From Acidobacteriota bacterium (GTDB taxonomy: Bacteria > Acidobacteriota > Terriglobia > Acidiferrales > UBA7541): 64,000 nt of DNA. Positions 16,645 through 51,283 of this stretch are shown here, one piece after another. A program made the translations under genes and the position numbers. Where the stretch lies: the NCBI GenBank assembly GCA_003223215.1, contig QHYH01000099.1, forward strand, positions 1 through 64,000, given 5' to 3'. Each line of letters starts with the position of its first letter. The stretch's first letter is position 1. The notes beneath the pieces were generated by a model that worked only from the letters and a program-made list of their open reading frames with translations, was not told the origin of the DNA and ran no database searches.

Positions 16645-17340
16645 ATGCCTTGGGACTTCTGGTTGATCTTCTTTGCTCTCGGCGTACTCCTGCCCTGGCG
16701 CGGCCGCGCGCGCATGAAGAAGCTCCTGGCCATGACGCAAGTCAGCTCGATGGAGCGGCTGGTGCTTTATGCCTCGACCATCGCCTTCCAGTGGCTCGCC
16801 GTTGCGGTCGTGGGGTGGCGCGTCTGGGTGCATGGGTATAGCGCGCGGCAGCTAGGCCTGGTGTTTCACGGCCGAACCAGGCTACTCCTCGGCGGGCTTG
16901 TGGGCGCGGCAATAATGGGTGGCCTTCAGTGGCTGAACCTGCGCCGTGTCGGGCGCATTCCTCCCGGCTCCCGCGGAGGGATGCAGGCGGTTGCCGAGCG
17001 CATTCTGCCGCAGTCCTCGCTGGAGCTGCTTCCTTACCTCGCGCTCGCCGCGACCGCGGGGCTTTGCGAAGAGTTTCTCTATCGCGGATTTGTCATGGCT
17101 GCCCTGTCGAGCGCTGGGCTCGGGGCTTGGGTCGTCGTGCTGGTCTCTTCGCTGCTCTTTAGCCTGGCCCACAGCTACCAGGGGACAGGCGGCATGGTGA
17201 TGACCCTTGTCGTGGGTTGGCTGTTAGGAGCGAGCCGATTGGCGTACAATAGTCTAGTACCCGCAGTTTTCTGGCATGCCTCCGTCGACGTGGTGGCCGG
17301 GGTGGCCGGGCGGCGATATCTCGGTCGAAACACAACATAG
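16645..17340 (+). CDS. CPBP (CAAX/Abi-type) intramembrane metalloprotease
   Basis: About 231 residues from ATG 16645; TTG 16609 would add 12 unconvincing residues. Several membrane helices (FWLIFFALGVLLPW, LYASTIAFQWLAVAVVGW) lead to the family's motifs: EEFLYRGF (motif 1, catalytic Glu pair), LLFSLAHSYQG (motif 2 His) and PAVFWHASVDV (motif 3 His). These are glutamate proteases of the membrane, related to Rce1 and to bacteriocin-immunity proteins; the substrate cannot be predicted. It is followed 48 bases later by rsmG on the same strand. Confidence 0.88.
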   Translation: MPWDFWLIFFALGVLLPWRGRARMKKLLAMTQVSSMERLVLYASTIAFQWLAVAVVGWRVWVHGYSARQLGLVFHGRTRLLLGGLVGAAIMGGLQWLNLRRVGRIPPGSRGGMQAVAERILPQSSLELLPYLALAATAGLCEEFLYRGFVMAALSSAGLGAWVVVLVSSLLFSLAHSYQGTGGMVMTLVVGWLLGASRLAYNSLVPAVFWHASVDVVAGVAGRRYLGRNTT

Positions 17341-17388
17341 GCTCGGGAAGAAGCGCTTTGCAATAGAAGGCGATTAAGAGTAACTACT

Positions 17389-18033
17389 ATGGCCATGGTC
17401 AGCCCACCGCTGCCCTCTATGGCGGTCATTCGACGCGCCCTCGAAGAATTCAAATTGCCGTCGTACGACGACCAAATCCTGCAAATTCAAGACTATATAA
17501 AGATTCTACTGACTTGGAACGATAAGCTCAACTTGACGGCGATTCGCGATCCGCTCGATATCCTCCACCGGCACTTCTGCGAAAGCATGTTAGCGGGGAT
17601 TTCCGTGCCGATCGAGCGTGGTCGGCTCGCCGACGTGGGTACTGGTGCCGGGTTCCCGGGCTTGCCGCTAAAAATCCTGCGCCCTAGCTTGCAAGTTTTC
17701 CTCATCGAGTCGAACATCAAAAAGGCCGCGTTCCTGGCGGAAGTCATTCGAGTGCTGGGGCTCCGAGACGCCCAAGTACTGGTGCGACGCTACGAGGAGC
17801 TAGGGGAAGAAATTGCCCCGCTCGATTTCGCTTGTGCACGAGCCCTCGGCGAGTACCCGGTTTTCTTGAACTGGGCGCACTCGGGGCATGTTGCGGCAAA
17901 AGATGTGGTCTTGTGGATTGGGTCCCAAGATCTACCGGAGATATTGAAGGTTCCGACTTGGGAATGGCGTGAGCCAATCCCCGTGCCGAATTCTTTGCGA
18001 CGCCTCCTCCTTGTGGGACGACGAAATCCCTGA
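17389..18033 (+). CDS. rsmG: 16S rRNA (guanine-527-N7) methyltransferase
   Basis: 214 residues from ATG 17389. It has the RsmG pattern: YIKILLTWNDKLNLTAIRDP, the SAM-binding motif LADVGTGAGFPGLPLKI, LIESNIKKAAFLAEVIR and FACARALG. RsmG methylates N7 of G527 in 16S rRNA in the cytoplasm. The C-terminal region (HVAAKDVVLWIGSQDL) is slightly divergent from the usual GG-rich strand. Its place directly before the parS array and parAB matches the classic rsmG-parA-parB order, but the mnmE and mnmG genes that often precede it are not here. Confidence 0.93.
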   Translation: MAMVSPPLPSMAVIRRALEEFKLPSYDDQILQIQDYIKILLTWNDKLNLTAIRDPLDILHRHFCESMLAGISVPIERGRLADVGTGAGFPGLPLKILRPSLQVFLIESNIKKAAFLAEVIRVLGLRDAQVLVRRYEELGEEIAPLDFACARALGEYPVFLNWAHSGHVAAKDVVLWIGSQDLPEILKVPTWEWREPIPVPNSLRRLLLVGRRNP

Positions 18034-18316
18034 TCCACGTCCGGTCTGGGAGATGTTGCAAAGGGACTTCGGGATTCGGGTGCCAACGGCGCTCGCCGAT
18101 GCGGATCTCTCGAGAGAGTGTTCCACGTGGAACACTTCGTTTCCCACTCGCGCGCCTCTTCTGCTAAATACACGCCTCAGACTTCCCACGCTTTCTCAAA
18201 ACCCGCTGGACGCGCTTCGTGCCTGGCAAGACTGTTTCACGTGGAACATTCAAGCGAGGCCGGCGGACCAGGCACCGAACTGTTCCACGTGGAACAATCG
18301 TCCTGTGGCTCGAGCC

Positions 18317-18332
18317 TGTTTCATGTAAGTAC
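18317..18332. promoter_or_regulatory. Degenerate parS-like half site, copy 1
   Basis: TGTTTCATGTAAGTAC keeps the left half of a parS site and loses the right half. It lies 36 bases after the intact site at 18281. Confidence 0.5.
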
Positions 18333-18511
18333 GGGAGCCTCTCAAGCGAACCTTCGTTGGGGATTTCCTCACTCGGATTTTGTTCCACGTGAAACATATT
18401 GCAACCGAATGCCGGTCCCGGGGACGGGGATTACCTTTTTCGTCCAGCGGGACGAGGTCGGCGGGCCAGGCACCGAACTGTTCCACGTGGAACAATCGTG
18501 TGGCTCGAGCC

Positions 18512-18527
18512 TGTTTCATGTGAGAGT
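18512..18527. promoter_or_regulatory. Degenerate parS-like half site, copy 2
   Basis: TGTTTCATGTGAGAGT lies 33 bases after the intact site at 18479, in the same relation as copies 1 and 3. Confidence 0.5.
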
Positions 18528-18868
18528 ACGTGCCCTGGACGCCTTGCCCTCAGGATCCTCGAGCCTTGCCCGGGGAAGTGAAAACCACAGCCCGGAAGGC
18601 CTCGTTCTTCGAAGAATCCCAGCTTCTCAAAGCGAACCGTTCTTGGGGAAGCGCATGACCGTGCGCAATACCGCGTTGTAGAACGCGAGTAGCGCCGCTG
18701 GACCGCTACCCGACTTTTGCGATTTCCTCATTCTGCTTTTGTTCCACGTGAAACACCTTGCAACCGAATGCCAGTCCTGGGGACGGATCCCCTTTCCGTC
18801 GAGCGGGGATGAGGCTGGCGGGCCGACCACCGAACTGTTCCACGTGGAACAATCGTGTGGCTCGAGCC

Positions 18869-18884
18869 TGTTTCATGTGAGTAG
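18869..18884. promoter_or_regulatory. Degenerate parS-like half site, copy 3
   Basis: TGTTTCATGTGAGTAG lies 33 bases after the intact site at 18836. Confidence 0.5.
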
Positions 18885-19085
18885 CGTGCCCTGGACGCCT
18901 TGCCCTCAGGATCCTCGAGCCTTGCCCGGGGAAGTGAAACCACAGCCCGAAAGGCCCCGCTCGTTCGAAGAATTCCAGCTTCTCAAGCGAACCGTCCCTG
19001 GGGATTTCCTCACTCGGCTTTTGTTCCACGTGAAACATCTTGCAAGCGAAGCGGTCCTTTGCTAGATTTCCGCTCGAGAGGCTCC

Positions 19086-19892
19086 GTGGCACGAATCATC
19101 GCGATTGCCAACCAAAAAGGTGGAGTCGGAAAGACAACCACGGCCGTCAACCTCTCCGCATGTCTCGCCACCGCCAAGCAGCCCACCCTTCTCGTCGATT
19201 GCGATTCCCAGGCCAATACGACCGCGGCGATCGGCTTTGCGAAAGATCCTTCCCGTCATACGCTCTACCACTCTCTGATTTTGAACGAGCCCTTCGACAG
19301 AATCATCCAGAAGTCACAAGTGGAGGGACTGGACGTCATCCCTGCCGACAAAAACCTCGCTGGAGCCGCGGTTGAACTGGTGTCGGCGGAAGAAAGGGAA
19401 TACCGGCTGCGTGGGGCGCTCAAGGCTGTCGATGACAAGTACACCTTCATTATTATGGATTGTCCGCCTGCCCTCGACTTGCTCACGTTGAATGCCTTGT
19501 GCGCCGCAGGTTCGGTTCTTGTTCCCATTCAGTGCGAATACCTGGCCTTGGAGGGCGTATCGGAACTACTGGATACGCTGATGCGCATCCGGCGGACCTT
19601 GAATCCGAACCTCGAGATCGAAGGCATTCTTCTGACCATGTACGACGAACGAACGACGCTCTCGCGCCAGGTGGCCAACGATCTGCACACTTTCTTCGGG
19701 CAGCAGATTTTCAAGAGCATCATTCCGCGCAATGTTCGCTTGGCAGAAGCCCCGAGTTTCGGCAAACCCATCATTCTCTACGACCCGAATAGCAAAGGGG
19801 CCGAAGGCTACACGCATCTTGCAAAAGAGGTGATATCTAATGGCGAGAAACGCACTGGGACGGGGACTCGGAGCGCTCATTCGGGAGCTTGA
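19086..19892 (+). CDS. parA: Chromosome partitioning ATPase ParA
   Basis: 268 residues. GTG 19086 follows GAGAGG and gives the canonical start MARIIAIANQKGGVGKTTTA, with the deviant Walker A motif at 11-18. The frame is open further upstream through the parS array, but that is not coding. Further motifs: LLVDCDSQANTT, FIIMDCPPALDLLTLNAL (Walker B) and SIIPRNVRLAEAPSFGKP. ParA dimerises with ATP on the nucleoid and moves ParB-parS complexes to segregate origins. Its last 53 bases overlap parB, indicating translational coupling, and the parS array directly upstream may allow feedback by ParB. Confidence 0.95.
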   Translation: MARIIAIANQKGGVGKTTTAVNLSACLATAKQPTLLVDCDSQANTTAAIGFAKDPSRHTLYHSLILNEPFDRIIQKSQVEGLDVIPADKNLAGAAVELVSAEEREYRLRGALKAVDDKYTFIIMDCPPALDLLTLNALCAAGSVLVPIQCEYLALEGVSELLDTLMRIRRTLNPNLEIEGILLTMYDERTTLSRQVANDLHTFFGQQIFKSIIPRNVRLAEAPSFGKPIILYDPNSKGAEGYTHLAKEVISNGEKRTGTGTRSAHSGA

Positions 19893-20775
19893 AGGCAAAA
19901 GGTCCGAGCCGGCGCCGCCACCGCCGCAACCTCAGGCCACGGCAACCAACGCCTCCGCCGTCGCGGCCATGCCCGCCCGCCAAGCCACGCAAGGTGGTCC
20001 CCAGGAAATCGATATCGACCTGATTGAGCCTAGCCCGTATCAGCCGCGTACCAAATTCCACGAGCAGGCCCTTGACGAACTGGCGCGCTCCATTAAGACC
20101 AGCGGAATCATTCAGCCTTTGGTCCTGCGGCCGATCGGTTCGCGCTTTCAACTGATCGCCGGCGAGCGCCGCTGGCGCGCAGCGCAGCGCGCTGGGCTCA
20201 ACAAAGTCTCGGCCATTGTGAGGCAAGTGCCCGACGAACTCGCGCTCGAAATGACCCTCGTCGAGAACATTCAGCGCGAGGATCTGAATCCCATAGAAGC
20301 GGCGCGTGCGTTTGAGCGATTGATGGACGAATTTCACTTGACGCAGGATGCCGTCGCGGAGAGGACCGGGAAAGACCGCGCTACGGTGGCGAACGCGATT
20401 CGTCTGCTCAAGCTCGACAAGCAAATCCAGGAGTGGATCGAAGAAGGGAAGCTCTCGGCCGGACACGGCCGTGCGCTGCTCGCGGTTCCCGAGCAGCAGT
20501 TGCGCATGCGCTACGCGCACCGCGCCTCGCGAGGAGCTTTGACGGTCCGTCAAATTGAAAAGCTGGCGGCGCGACGTGCACAGGGAAAGCAGCCCCATCC
20601 GTCAGCTCCGGCGCACCTGGACGCGAACATCAAAAACGCGCTTGAGGAGCTGCAGCGGCACCTGGGTACGAGAATTAGTTTGCGGCAAAGGACCAAGATA
20701 CGACCCGGGCAGTTGGTGCTCGAGTTCTACGACGACAAGCAGTTGATGGGGCTCTACGATCGCTTGATGAAGTAG
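19840..20775 (+). CDS. parB: Chromosome partitioning protein ParB (CTPase)
   Basis: 311 residues from ATG 19840, inside the end of parA. The start MARNALGRGLGALI is the usual ParA-interacting N-terminus. Residues ~57-150 hold the CTP-binding ParB/Srx domain (PSPYQPRTKF, GERRWRAAQRAG, LVENIQREDLNPIEAA). Residues ~155-220 form the helix-turn-helix DNA-binding part (TQDAVAERTGKDRATVAN), and the end (LGTRISLRQRTKIRPGQLVL) is the dimerisation domain. ParB loads at parS and slides as a CTP-bound clamp. The neighbouring array supplies its sites. Confidence 0.95.
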   Translation: MARNALGRGLGALIRELEGKRSEPAPPPPQPQATATNASAVAAMPARQATQGGPQEIDIDLIEPSPYQPRTKFHEQALDELARSIKTSGIIQPLVLRPIGSRFQLIAGERRWRAAQRAGLNKVSAIVRQVPDELALEMTLVENIQREDLNPIEAARAFERLMDEFHLTQDAVAERTGKDRATVANAIRLLKLDKQIQEWIEEGKLSAGHGRALLAVPEQQLRMRYAHRASRGALTVRQIEKLAARRAQGKQPHPSAPAHLDANIKNALEELQRHLGTRISLRQRTKIRPGQLVLEFYDDKQLMGLYDRLMK

Positions 20776-20978
20776 CCGGAGCGAGAACGCGGATTGCCGC
20801 AGGTTGGCTTCGCCTGTGGCCCGGAAGTCGCCGGAAGAGCTGGCTCGAAAGATTGCTTGCAGAACAACTGTCCGTTCGCGCAGTCTTTAGTTCGACAAAC
20901 CCGTACTTCGGTCACGTTGACTTGTTTTCGCCGCCGGTTAAAAGTAGAAGTATGATGAAGCTTGCGGGAGAACTCGAA

Positions 20979-21413
20979 ATGCCTTGGAAGTGGCCTACCG
21001 CCAATAAAAACGGCGACGCGACAGACAGTACAAGCAGTGAAGAGTGGACGGGGTTCATCGATCAGGGTGTAACCCTCGAAGGAACGCTGACGGTCACCGG
21101 CACGTTCCGCATCGATGGCAATGTGAAGGGTAACATCATCTCGGAGCAGACCGTGGTCCTTGGCGACGGCGCCAAAGTGGAAGGACAGATCGAAGGCAAT
21201 CGCGTGGTCATTTCCGGCCGCTTCGATGGGGTGATTTTCGCCAGGGGCCGCGTCGAGGTTCAAGCCAAGGGCGTAGTGACCGGGGAAGTGCATTCGCCCT
21301 GCATGGTCATTGATCCAGGCGGGATCTTCGACGGGCGCTGCCACATGCTGGCTTCTTCGGATACCGCTTCCGCTTCCGTAACCATTCCCATTCGCGCCGC
21401 CGGCGCTAGGTAA
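20979..21413 (+). CDS. Bactofilin
   Basis: About 144 residues from ATG 20979 (GGGAG upstream); ATG 20952 would add nine residues. The central region is the bactofilin beta-helix: TGFIDQGVTLEGTLTVTGTF, RIDGNVKGNI, GDGAKVEGQIEGNRVVISGR and VEVQAKGVVTGEVHSP. Bactofilins polymerise without nucleotide into cytoskeletal filaments that scaffold envelope enzymes. In Myxococcus xanthus bactofilins position the ParABS system. Here the gene follows parB by about 200 bases on the same strand, which suggests the same partnership; that link is inferred from position. Confidence 0.9.
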   Translation: MPWKWPTANKNGDATDSTSSEEWTGFIDQGVTLEGTLTVTGTFRIDGNVKGNIISEQTVVLGDGAKVEGQIEGNRVVISGRFDGVIFARGRVEVQAKGVVTGEVHSPCMVIDPGGIFDGRCHMLASSDTASASVTIPIRAAGAR

Positions 21414-21516
21414 TTCGTCTCTAATATATATAGCTAGCTAACAGGAGCAAACTCCGGCCGAAGGTGGCACTTGTCAGCCGGGCTTGCTCCCATCCCCGCT
21501 TTTCGCCGGCCCGGCC

Positions 21517-49526: not shown

Positions 49527-50888
49527 TTACTGCAGGGCGTCCATCAACCGAGTGATGGTTCGGTTGAGATCTTTGTCCGACCGGCGCAGCTCCTCGATCT
49601 TGTTGATCGAATGCAGCACCGTGGTGTGATGCTTGCCGCCGAACTGACGGCCAATCTCCGGCAGCGAGGCCGTGGTGAGCTGCTTCACGATGTACATGGC
49701 CACCTGCCGCGGAAAAGCGATCGCGCGCGTATTGCTGCGTATCTTGAGGTCCTGCTCGCGCAAATCGAAGTGTTCGCTCACGCGTTTCTGGATCAGGTCG
49801 ATGGTCACGCGCTTTTCCTGCGAGGCGATGATGTTCCGCAACACCTGCTGCGCCGTGGACAGCGAAACCGCGGCACCGGTCAGTGAAGCATAAGCCATCA
49901 GGCGGGTCAGCGCGCCTTCGAGCTCGCGCACGTTGGACTTGATGGCGCGCGCGATGTATTCCGCCACGTCGTCGGGCAGGCTGAAGCGCTCGTTCTCCGC
50001 CTTCTTCTGCAGAATGGCGATCTTTGTTTCGAGGTCGGGCGGCTGGATGTCCGCAATCAATCCCCATTCGAACCGCGAGCGCAGGCGTTCCTCGATGGAG
50101 TTGATGTCCTTCGGCAAGCAGTCCGAGGAAATGACGATCTGCTTTTGCTGCTCGTACAGGGCATTGAAAGTGTGAAAAAACTCTTCCTGCGTTCTTTCTT
50201 TCCCGGCGATGAATTGAATATCGTCCACCAGCAGCACATCCACGGTGTGAAAACGCTCGCGGAAGCTGATCATGCGGTCAAAGCGCAGCGAGTTGATCAC
50301 CTCGATGGTGAATTTCTCCGCGCTCACGTAGCTCAGCCGCATGGCCGGGTTGCGCTTCTTGATGGTGTGCCCGATAGCGTGCATCAAATGCGTCTTGCCC
50401 ATGCCCACCCCGCCGTAAAGGAACAGCGGGTTGTAGGCTTTCGAAGGGTGTTCGGCCACCGCGCGGGACGCCGCATGCGCAAATTCGTTGGACTTGCCCA
50501 CCACGAACGTGTCGAAGCTGTAGCGGGGATTGAGCTGGTGGTCGCTCGACTCAAAATCCAGCTTGGCTTGTCCCGCCTTGGGCAAAGCCGCGGGCGAGGC
50601 CGGCACCGGTTCCTCCTCGCTGCACACGTATTGGACCTTTATGTTGGGGGTTCCGAGCTCATGGAACACCGCCGTGATGATGTCCCCGTACGTGCGGGTG
50701 AGCACCTGGCGGAAAACGGCGCTGGGAATCTGAATGTACAGGATTTCGCCTTCGGCCCGGCTCAGCCGTGTTGGCTGGAACCACGTCGTAAAGGTGTTGA
50801 TGCTCACGCGGGCCTTGACGTGGTCGAGAAACTGGTCCCAGGGATTTCCCGCTTCACGCTCACGCCCAACTTGGGTTGCCGTCGTCAT
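49527..50888 (-). CDS. dnaA: Chromosomal replication initiator DnaA
   Basis: 453 residues from ATG 50888; a TTG at 50900 would add four residues. Domain I: WDQFLDHVKARVSINTFTTW. Linker ~90-120. The AAA+ domain holds LYGGVGMGKTHLMHAIGH (Walker A), VDVLLVDDIQFIAGKERTQE (Walker B) and SRFEWGLIADIQPPDLETK. Domain IV carries the box-binding helix-turn-helix with the signature GGKHHTTVLHSINKIEEL. DnaA binds 9-base boxes at oriC and opens the duplex. Candidate boxes lie directly upstream of its start. Confidence 0.97.
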   Translation of the reverse strand: MTTATQVGREREAGNPWDQFLDHVKARVSINTFTTWFQPTRLSRAEGEILYIQIPSAVFRQVLTRTYGDIITAVFHELGTPNIKVQYVCSEEEPVPASPAALPKAGQAKLDFESSDHQLNPRYSFDTFVVGKSNEFAHAASRAVAEHPSKAYNPLFLYGGVGMGKTHLMHAIGHTIKKRNPAMRLSYVSAEKFTIEVINSLRFDRMISFRERFHTVDVLLVDDIQFIAGKERTQEEFFHTFNALYEQQKQIVISSDCLPKDINSIEERLRSRFEWGLIADIQPPDLETKIAILQKKAENERFSLPDDVAEYIARAIKSNVRELEGALTRLMAYASLTGAAVSLSTAQQVLRNIIASQEKRVTIDLIQKRVSEHFDLREQDLKIRSNTRAIAFPRQVAMYIVKQLTTASLPEIGRQFGGKHHTTVLHSINKIEELRRSDKDLNRTITRLMDALQ

Positions 50889-51283
50889 CGCTAAAGACAA
50901 AACAAAGCCCCTTGGCTATTTCCACAGAATGTGTAAAACCTGTGGAAAGCAGTTCCTCGCTTACTCTTCTTCAGGCTTCGGGATTCCTGGCCGCGGCGGA
51001 TACCTCATGCCCCTGGGATCCGTATGCGACTTGTTAGGATTTGCCGGCCCACCTACCGCCGCTTGAGACCGCGCGGATTGTCGCCGATTGACTTGCCCAG
51101 GGCAAGCGAAAAGTGTGCGAAGGTCTTGGCGGTGTTGCACATGCTCTGCACAACTTTTCCACAGCCAGCAATTCCTCCCCGGCTGCCCACAAATACCTTT
51201 TTTTCACAACATTGCTCGGGAAAGTCTTTGCCGGGGAGAAATCTTTCACAAGGTCGGCGGGCGGAGGCTGAGGAAAACTCCAT
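50889..51283. other. oriC: Candidate replication origin (oriC) upstream of dnaA
   Basis: A ~395-base gene-free region with several matches to the DnaA box TTWTNCACA. Perfect: TGTGTAAAA at 50930 (reverse), TTTTCCACA at 51155, TTTTTCACA at 51200. One mismatch: ATTTCCACA at 50918, TGTGGAAAG at 50941 (reverse), TCTTTCACA at 51242. The first three lie within 32 bases, 30 bases upstream of dnaA, which could also serve dnaA autoregulation. A long AT-rich unwinding element is not obvious. Confidence 0.6.

Follow-up and report, generated by a model that had tools for sequence, protein, structure and literature searches.

In the 64-kb stretch of DNA analysed here (the window), the 1052-bp gap between rsmG and parA contains eight exact parS 16-mers, TGTTYCACGTGRAACA, at positions 18119-19037, a span of 919 bp. 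In 26 of 28 gaps from the genus, window included, exactly 2 bp separate the end of the last parS from a conserved promoter motif. We consider it reasonably likely that the locus is a Spo0J-type ParABS centromere whose amplified ParB-loading array is tied directly to the parAB promoter and is predicted to serve there as an autoregulatory operator. In this soil Acidobacteriota lineage, one DNA element would then probably both segregate chromosomes and set the amount of the Par proteins. Judged by sequence, the system is of an ordinary kind; as a variant it is unusual and informative, with a lineage-specific array fused at a fixed distance to a putative par promoter.

The par locus and its array of parS sites

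The window ParA belongs to the short class, with a deviant Walker A motif and no N-terminal DNA-binding domain. ParB matches Pfam ParB_N (E=9.2e-35) and HTH_ParB (E=3.6e-35); for ParB_C it scores 19.2 bits, under the cut-off of 23.8. Thirteen distinct solved ParB/Spo0J/Noc/KorB sequences match this protein. Residues 53-252 align with a solved ParB structure, and the motifs GERRWRA and ENIQR, aligned to 7bnk, are presumably the CTP motifs. Related loci give a bactofilin match in 30 of 32 cases. Short ParA, ParB_N plus HTH_ParB and consensus parS ~31 kb from dnaA together place the locus among Spo0J/Soj-type ParABS systems.

The array lies 30.5-31.9 kb from dnaA, which is followed by dnaN and gyrB, as read from the translations. 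A distance of ~31 kb from dnaA is an ordinary position for a centromere if the origin adjoins dnaA. Cumulative GC skew is usually minimal at the origin; that of the window peaks near 43-45 kb, which speaks against an origin beside dnaA. A candidate oriC (50901-51283), upstream of dnaA, contains DnaA-box-like sites at 50930, 51155 and 51200; the window as a whole has 5 such sites against an expectation of 1.75.

Table 1. Features of the par locus and of the dnaA region in the window.
Feature	Position	Strand	Remarks
rsmG (gidB), 16S rRNA methyltransferase	17389..18033	+	PF02527 E=1.3e-37; TIGR00138 over NCBIfam cut-off; upstream border of the array
parS 1	18119..18134		symmetric CC/GG type; outside the repeat units
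parS 2	18233..18248		asymmetric, with TTTCAC as its left arm (operator type reversed); outside the repeat units
Repeat unit A	18249..18447	+	short form, without ~91 nt that B and C have; from alignment
parS 3	18281..18296		symmetric type; unit A
Degenerate TGTTTCATGT	18317..18326	+	unit A; contains no intact half-parS
parS 4	18381..18396		operator type TGTTCCACGTGAAACA; unit A; 2 nt, then TTGCAA 18399-18404
Repeat unit B	18447..18804	+	long form, with ~73 nt absent from A and C; from alignment
parS 5	18479..18494		symmetric type; unit B
Degenerate TGTTTCATGT	18512..18521	+	unit B
parS 6	18740..18755		operator type; unit B; 2 nt, then TTGCAA 18758-18763
Repeat unit C	18804..19090	+	contains the putative working promoter; from alignment
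parS 7	18836..18851		symmetric type; unit C
Degenerate TGTTTCATGT	18869..18878	+	unit C
parS 8	19022..19037		promoter-proximal operator parS, AAACA arm towards parA; unit C
-35 TTGCAA, putative parAB promoter	19040..19045	+	2 nt after parS 8
-10 TAGATT	19063..19068	+	extended, TTGC before; 17-bp spacer; 17 nt from -10 end to parA start codon
parA	19086..19892	+	GTG start; 268 aa; Pfam AAA_31 residues 3-178; KGGVGKTT
parB	19840..20775	+	311 aa; Spo0J/ParB type; Pfam ParB_N and HTH_ParB
Bactofilin gene	20979..21413	+	directly downstream of parB; Pfam PF04519; putative start
dnaA	49527..50900	-	457-aa ORF; PF00308 (Bac_DnaA) E=1.6e-71 at 50052-50534

The gap runs from the rsmG stop at 18033 to the parA GTG at 19086, with 48 bp between the last parS and parA. 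All eight array sites match TGTTTCACGTGAAACA with at most two mismatches, and no other match with up to three mismatches is present in the window. Dinucleotide shuffles contain 0.20 sites on average and none of 100 reaches eight. The original prediction of eight intact 16-mers within 0.92 kb before parA is thus borne out by exact matches, far above the shuffles. Read on the minus strand, parS 2 (18233-18248) is of the operator type, and TCTTGC follows it with one additional base in between, as at the putative promoter. Its surroundings are possibly an inverted operator relic, although the flank match is weak.

Tandem Repeats Finder returned no rows for the array. Neighbouring parS sites of the genus are irregularly spaced, 26-261 bp apart, and no helical phasing was detected in the genus gaps (Rayleigh p 0.43-0.79). 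Only 1 of 102 adjacent genus spacings is below 38 bp, against a simulation mean of 26.5. Because 11 of 26 adjacent spacings in the sister genera fall below the same value, a steric rule with a 38-bp floor was dropped and no such rule is claimed. A structured RNA in the array region was also rejected, since an Rfam search over 17000-21500 with E up to 1 gave no matches.

Three degenerate TGTTTCATGT elements begin at 18317, 18512 and 18869; counted from the first base of the site before each, the distances are 36, 33 and 33 bp. They had been described as degenerate half sites lying 33-36 bp on in three units. This placement holds, but they are not intact half-parS and a role as such is unsupported. 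Half-parS heptamers of P. aeruginosa are given as GTTCCAC and GTTTCAC in the available excerpt of PMC10419367. The repeats read GTTTCAT, one base off these heptamers, and the one intact heptamer of the gap outside the eight sites, at 18934, lies away from them. Across the 28 genus gaps, intact half-sites show no enrichment (3 observed vs 2.2 expected). With a sequence one base off the heptamer and no half-site enrichment in the genus, a half-parS role for TGTTTCATGT was set aside. The three copies are one ancestral sequence duplicated along with the unit.

The promoter-proximal site and the putative parAB promoter

A generic sigma-70 scan of 17950-19150 returned no promoter. The promoter motif, which deviates from TTGACA/TATAAT, was identified by comparison across gaps; it is a consensus drawn from sequence, and the genus counts below come from related loci that are not independent. 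The motif is present in 27 of the 28 genus gaps, against 0.3% of shuffled tails. Its -35 is TTGCAT or TTGCAA in 24 of 27 cases and a near variant in the others. A spacer of 17 bp (18 in one gap) with a TNTGN-like end leads to a -10 of the form TAnnnT.

A proximal parS centred 57-64 bp before parA is found in 26 of the 28 genus gaps, and wherever it is present its distance to the -35 is 2 bp (26/26). These proximal sites read TGTTCCACGTGAAACA or close to it, 25 being of the CA type and one of the TA type. The promoter-facing arm is A-type in all 26, vs 18 of the 104 other genus sites, where a G-type right arm prevails (86/104). Two genus loci, L028 and L188, lack the proximal parS and keep their distal sites, which means that the operator is not indispensable. 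L028 retains the promoter motif. No match was obtained by the motif search for L188, where TTGCAT and a stretch resembling an extended -10 can nevertheless be seen.

If transcription starts ~7 nt after the -10, the centre of parS 8 would lie at about -46, where ParB would meet RNA polymerase. This position is the basis of a feedback model. ParB dimers would load as CTP clamps at the packed parS sites of the rsmG-parA gap and slide outward. Many close loading sites may raise the local amount of ParB for ParA-driven origin segregation and SMC loading. ParB at parS 8, or clamps sliding in from the array, would hinder RNA polymerase, and parAB expression would be held down in proportion to ParB loading, as a negative feedback on a promoter presumed active. 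The array had been proposed as a ParB loading platform, placed where ParB spreading would cover the parA promoter. The evidence is consistent with both proposals, and the comparison makes them more precise: the last site lies exactly 2 bp upstream of the -35 in all but two of the 28 genus gaps.

One could argue instead that the proximal parS is merely the nearest loading site, that its 2-bp distance results from inheritance and from promoter needs (an A-rich stretch by the -35), and that ParB does not regulate parAB. In favour of this, the AAACA arm extends an A-rich upstream element and L028 has the promoter motif without a proximal site. Moreover, loss of ParB is described as causing minor transcriptome changes in several species (review, in the excerpt of PMC7022226), P. 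aeruginosa being an exception (excerpt of PMC5521831). We nevertheless find this explanation somewhat unlikely. Both arms of the proximal 16-mer are kept at no more than two mismatches in 26 of the 28 genus gaps, unlike the inter-site spacers, which are not kept. Furthermore, outside the genus but within its family and order, 16 of 30 gaps have the 2-bp junction; it is absent from the other 14, four of which are without the motif. In these 30 gaps, the motif is present in 26, mostly with an 18-bp spacer (18/26), and the last site carries an A-type promoter-facing arm in 25 and none in 5. Among 100 stretches from outside the order, the motif was found in three and the junction in none.

Site number in relatives and probable growth of the array

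Relatives were first collected by ParB similarity. Among the 32 obtained, L008, L017 and L033 have an incomplete gap and L035 and L036 no rsmG-parA gap; the 27 complete gaps all carry 2-8 sites at no more than two mismatches. The set of 28 genus gaps, part of 36 genus genomes, leaves out L031 and L032, which belong to another genus, and includes two additional genus genomes as well as the window; L190-L196 have the same site spacings as loci already in the set and were left out as duplicates. All 31 matching genomes outside the genus were taken. L179 has no upstream sequence. L186, with 671 upstream bases, and L187 belong to other families of the order and are in the set of 30 but not among the 28 sister-genus loci. 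For the set from outside the order, 116 of 119 genomes match, including our own, and 100 of the 115 others were taken, 15 being omitted by hand with no stated rule. Sites were counted over the gap in the genus and over up to 1.5 kb upstream of parA in the sister genera and the phylum.

The 28 genus gaps contain 130 sites in total, 2-8 each with a median of 5, and at least four in 23 of them. Sister-genus loci have two sites in 24 of 28 cases, one in three and three in one. Outside the order, the 100 stretches contain zero (21), one (40), two (31), three (5) or four, five and six sites (one each), with a median of one. The phylum baseline is thus one or two parS upstream of parA. Amplification to a median of five characterises the genus, though L094, L139 and L140, all from outside the order, also have 4-6 sites. 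Comparing array copy number in relatives, as had been suggested, shows arrays in 28 of 28 genus gaps; they are not peculiar to this genome.

ParA phylogeny groups the 28 genus rows in a single clade (100/99), where the window, with eight sites, stands among relatives with five. The other two 8-site loci, L015 and L019, belong to a different ParA subclade from the window, so high site counts probably arose more than once. The record of L015 is titled Betaproteobacteria; by its ParA and array it groups firmly with the Acidobacteriota genus and is probably a mislabelled draft. L021 and L022 have identical ParA and 2 vs 5 parS. The difference is a single 146-bp block with parS copies on either side, and it suggests that sites are gained or lost through parS-parS recombination. 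Flank likeness is 8.39/30 on average within one locus and 8.26/30 between loci. The palindromes persist and the spacers drift, which we read as purifying selection on the sites.

In the window, alignment reveals three repeat units, which share a symmetric site, the TGTTTCATGT element, an operator-type site and a trailing TTGCAA. The repeats extend beyond the sites, in agreement with an earlier claim that whole units were duplicated. Five pairs of window sites have at least 18/30 identical flank bases (20-27/30), only among 18281/18381, 18479/18740 and 18836/19022. For 18119 and 18233, comparison of the flanks with those of every other site, in both orientations, gives only 8-19/50 identical bases, where ~12.5 is expected by chance. 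The eight sites had been counted as four pairs; this has to be revised to three repeated pairs, or six sites, with 18119 and 18233 outside them. The operator/-35 junction recurs at 18381 and 18740. We read these copies as relics, and with such relic operators in the repeat units, the window array probably grew by copying of the promoter-proximal segment. A smaller ancestral array, for example of five sites as in the nearest relatives, may have been the starting point. The segment with one symmetric site, operator parS and -35 would have been copied twice, in a presumed order of duplications; the extra operator copies would have retained their parS while their promoter parts decayed.

Whether the eight-site array is more than a neutral by-product of local duplication, with extra sites that add nothing, has to be considered. 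Recent unit copies (flank pairs of at least 18/30) are found in the window only among the 28 genus gaps, site numbers swing quickly, as L021 and L022 illustrate, and a single site of the cluster is described as sufficient in P. aeruginosa (excerpt of PMC4368675). Against this, all eight copies are intact despite diverged unit flanks, and at least four sites are kept in 23 of 28 genus gaps. We regard neutrality as improbable.

Sites outside the array are scarce in the same genome. Across the 8.8-Mb draft, 14 places match the 12-mer TTYCACGTGRAA, eight of them in the array, against one occurrence of a reversed control pattern. Only one of the six remaining places has the 14-mer GTTYCACGTGRAAC, on contig 14 in a sodium:dicarboxylate symporter gene. 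Going by these matches, the array is nearly the whole parS set of the genome (97.65% complete). The original prediction set the array against genomes with a few scattered sites. The near absence of sites outside the array agrees with it, but the array is a genus trait and a similarly dense, larger cluster is known in M. xanthus.

Many genus genomes have a further 14-mer on another contig, among the matches listed. In 8 of 20 fetched stretches the extra 14-mer lies in one gene, encoding an AMP-binding/PP-binding/acyltransferase fusion (L048:1221-3800). Homologues of this gene were gathered by protein similarity, ignoring the site; 35 of 36 genomes match, and the best 30 of these (L197-L226) were compared. 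FHVE stands at the site in 17 of the 30, and all 17 read the parS-like 15-mer GTTYCACGTGGAACT. In these 17, 5 of 68 conserved degenerate codons are invariant, and three of the five are the CAC GTG GAA of the site. This points to DNA-level selection for parS, and suggests that an intragenic parS is kept in the fusion gene by selection on DNA. The best homologue in our own genome (L212) has FQAQ there and lacks the site. In five genus genomes, a gene for an outer-membrane beta-barrel (FHVKH) carries GTTTCACGTGAAAC (L044, L045, L047 and L053) or GTTTCACGTGGAAC (L056). Its site is present in 5 of 30 homologues and gives no verdict on DNA-level selection, because these five share 21 invariant codons among 118 conserved ones in any case. 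L043 (G006:C73:60609) and L050 (G011:C87:37842) have a single GTTTCACGTGAAAC on the dnaA contig, ~33 kb and ~18 kb from dnaA, respectively, so that relatives have additional dnaA-proximal parS beyond the array.

Proposed feedback, significance and known systems

A more far-reaching proposal, which we put forward tentatively, is that centromere and parAB operator are one element. The proximal TGTTCCACGTGAAACA would be a dedicated operator class locked 2 bp from the -35, and the array an adjustable ParB reservoir from which clamps slide in, with centromere loading and chromosome copy setting the supply of ParA and ParB. The set point would be tuned by parS-parS recombination, here by operator copying, and further parS inside protein-coding genes would be kept by DNA selection.

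ParB bound at parS 8 could also activate parAB, from a class II-like position near -46, with no repression. The fixed distance at which parS 8 adjoins the -35 would suit such a role. We find activation quite implausible, as the chromosomal parS-adjacent case described for P. aeruginosa is one of repression (excerpt of PMC5521831), and a sliding clamp seems likelier to obstruct polymerase than to recruit it. Although the assembly is a draft of 279 contigs, an assembly artefact is hardly credible, and collapse as the main explanation was rejected, because the unit copies are distinguishable by substitutions and by ~73-bp and ~91-bp blocks present in one and missing in another, the longest exact repeat within the gap is 55 bp, and relatives have arrays of 2-8 sites without unit copies.

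Returning to the autoregulated centromere that we favour, the locus bears in our judgement on two matters open in most bacteria: parS number and layout in ParB loading, and the self-control of chromosomal ParB. Within the genus, site number varies naturally from 2 to 8 while the locus and the promoter geometry stay the same, which makes both matters directly testable. Useful contrasts are offered by L028 and L188, without operator parS, and by L021 and L022, with identical ParA and 2 vs 5 sites. The locus also adds promoter-linked centromere arrays from an environmental phylum. If the one-element proposal is true, chromosome copy and centromere loading would directly set the supply of ParA and ParB. 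In the open-access literature, a narrow search judged by title found no report of parS in Acidobacteria, and among the papers listed on autoregulated parAB none reports this promoter geometry, judged by title and start of abstract.

In the F-plasmid centromere sopC, a 43-bp unit is repeated regularly in tandem downstream of sopB. The window shares with it multiple ParB sites beside the partition operon and differs by irregular spacing, Tandem Repeats Finder having found no iteron-like array. Chromosome II of V. cholerae is a secondary chromosome with its own parS type. Its ParB2 is described as spreading beyond its sites and coupling segregation to replication control (excerpts of PMC3688505 and PMC3141006); the spreading resembles what we propose, and the system differs as that of a secondary chromosome. 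P. aeruginosa parS1-4 form an origin-proximal cluster that includes intergenic parS at promoters, and ParB at intergenic parS3 and parS4 represses adjacent promoters. In contrast with our proposal, the repressed genes are PA0010-PA0015 and not parAB, and of the four sites near oriC, parS1 and parS2 are intragenic (both points from the excerpt of PMC5521831).

A bactofilin gene stands beside parB in Bdellovibrio (excerpt of PMC10547168), and bacM directly downstream of parAB in M. xanthus. The latter has 22 parS (24 in PMC3778016), in a 3-kb cluster ~4 kb upstream of parA (excerpts of PMC3899335 and PMC5703909). The consensus is TGTTCCACGTGGAACG and the cluster lies ~30-35 kb from oriC (excerpts of PMC3899335, PMC3778016 and PMC5703909). 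The window resembles this system in its dense parS cluster upstream of parAB, in the similar distance to origin or dnaA and in the bactofilin gene downstream. A Myxococcus-type cluster would have at least ~20 sites several kb from parAB; the window has eight, at similar density, in 0.92 kb, 48 bp from parA and ending at the putative promoter, whereas these excerpts place no site at the M. xanthus parAB promoter. Dense parS clusters are thus already known, and the fixed geometry of parS and -35 appears to be the more informative feature here.
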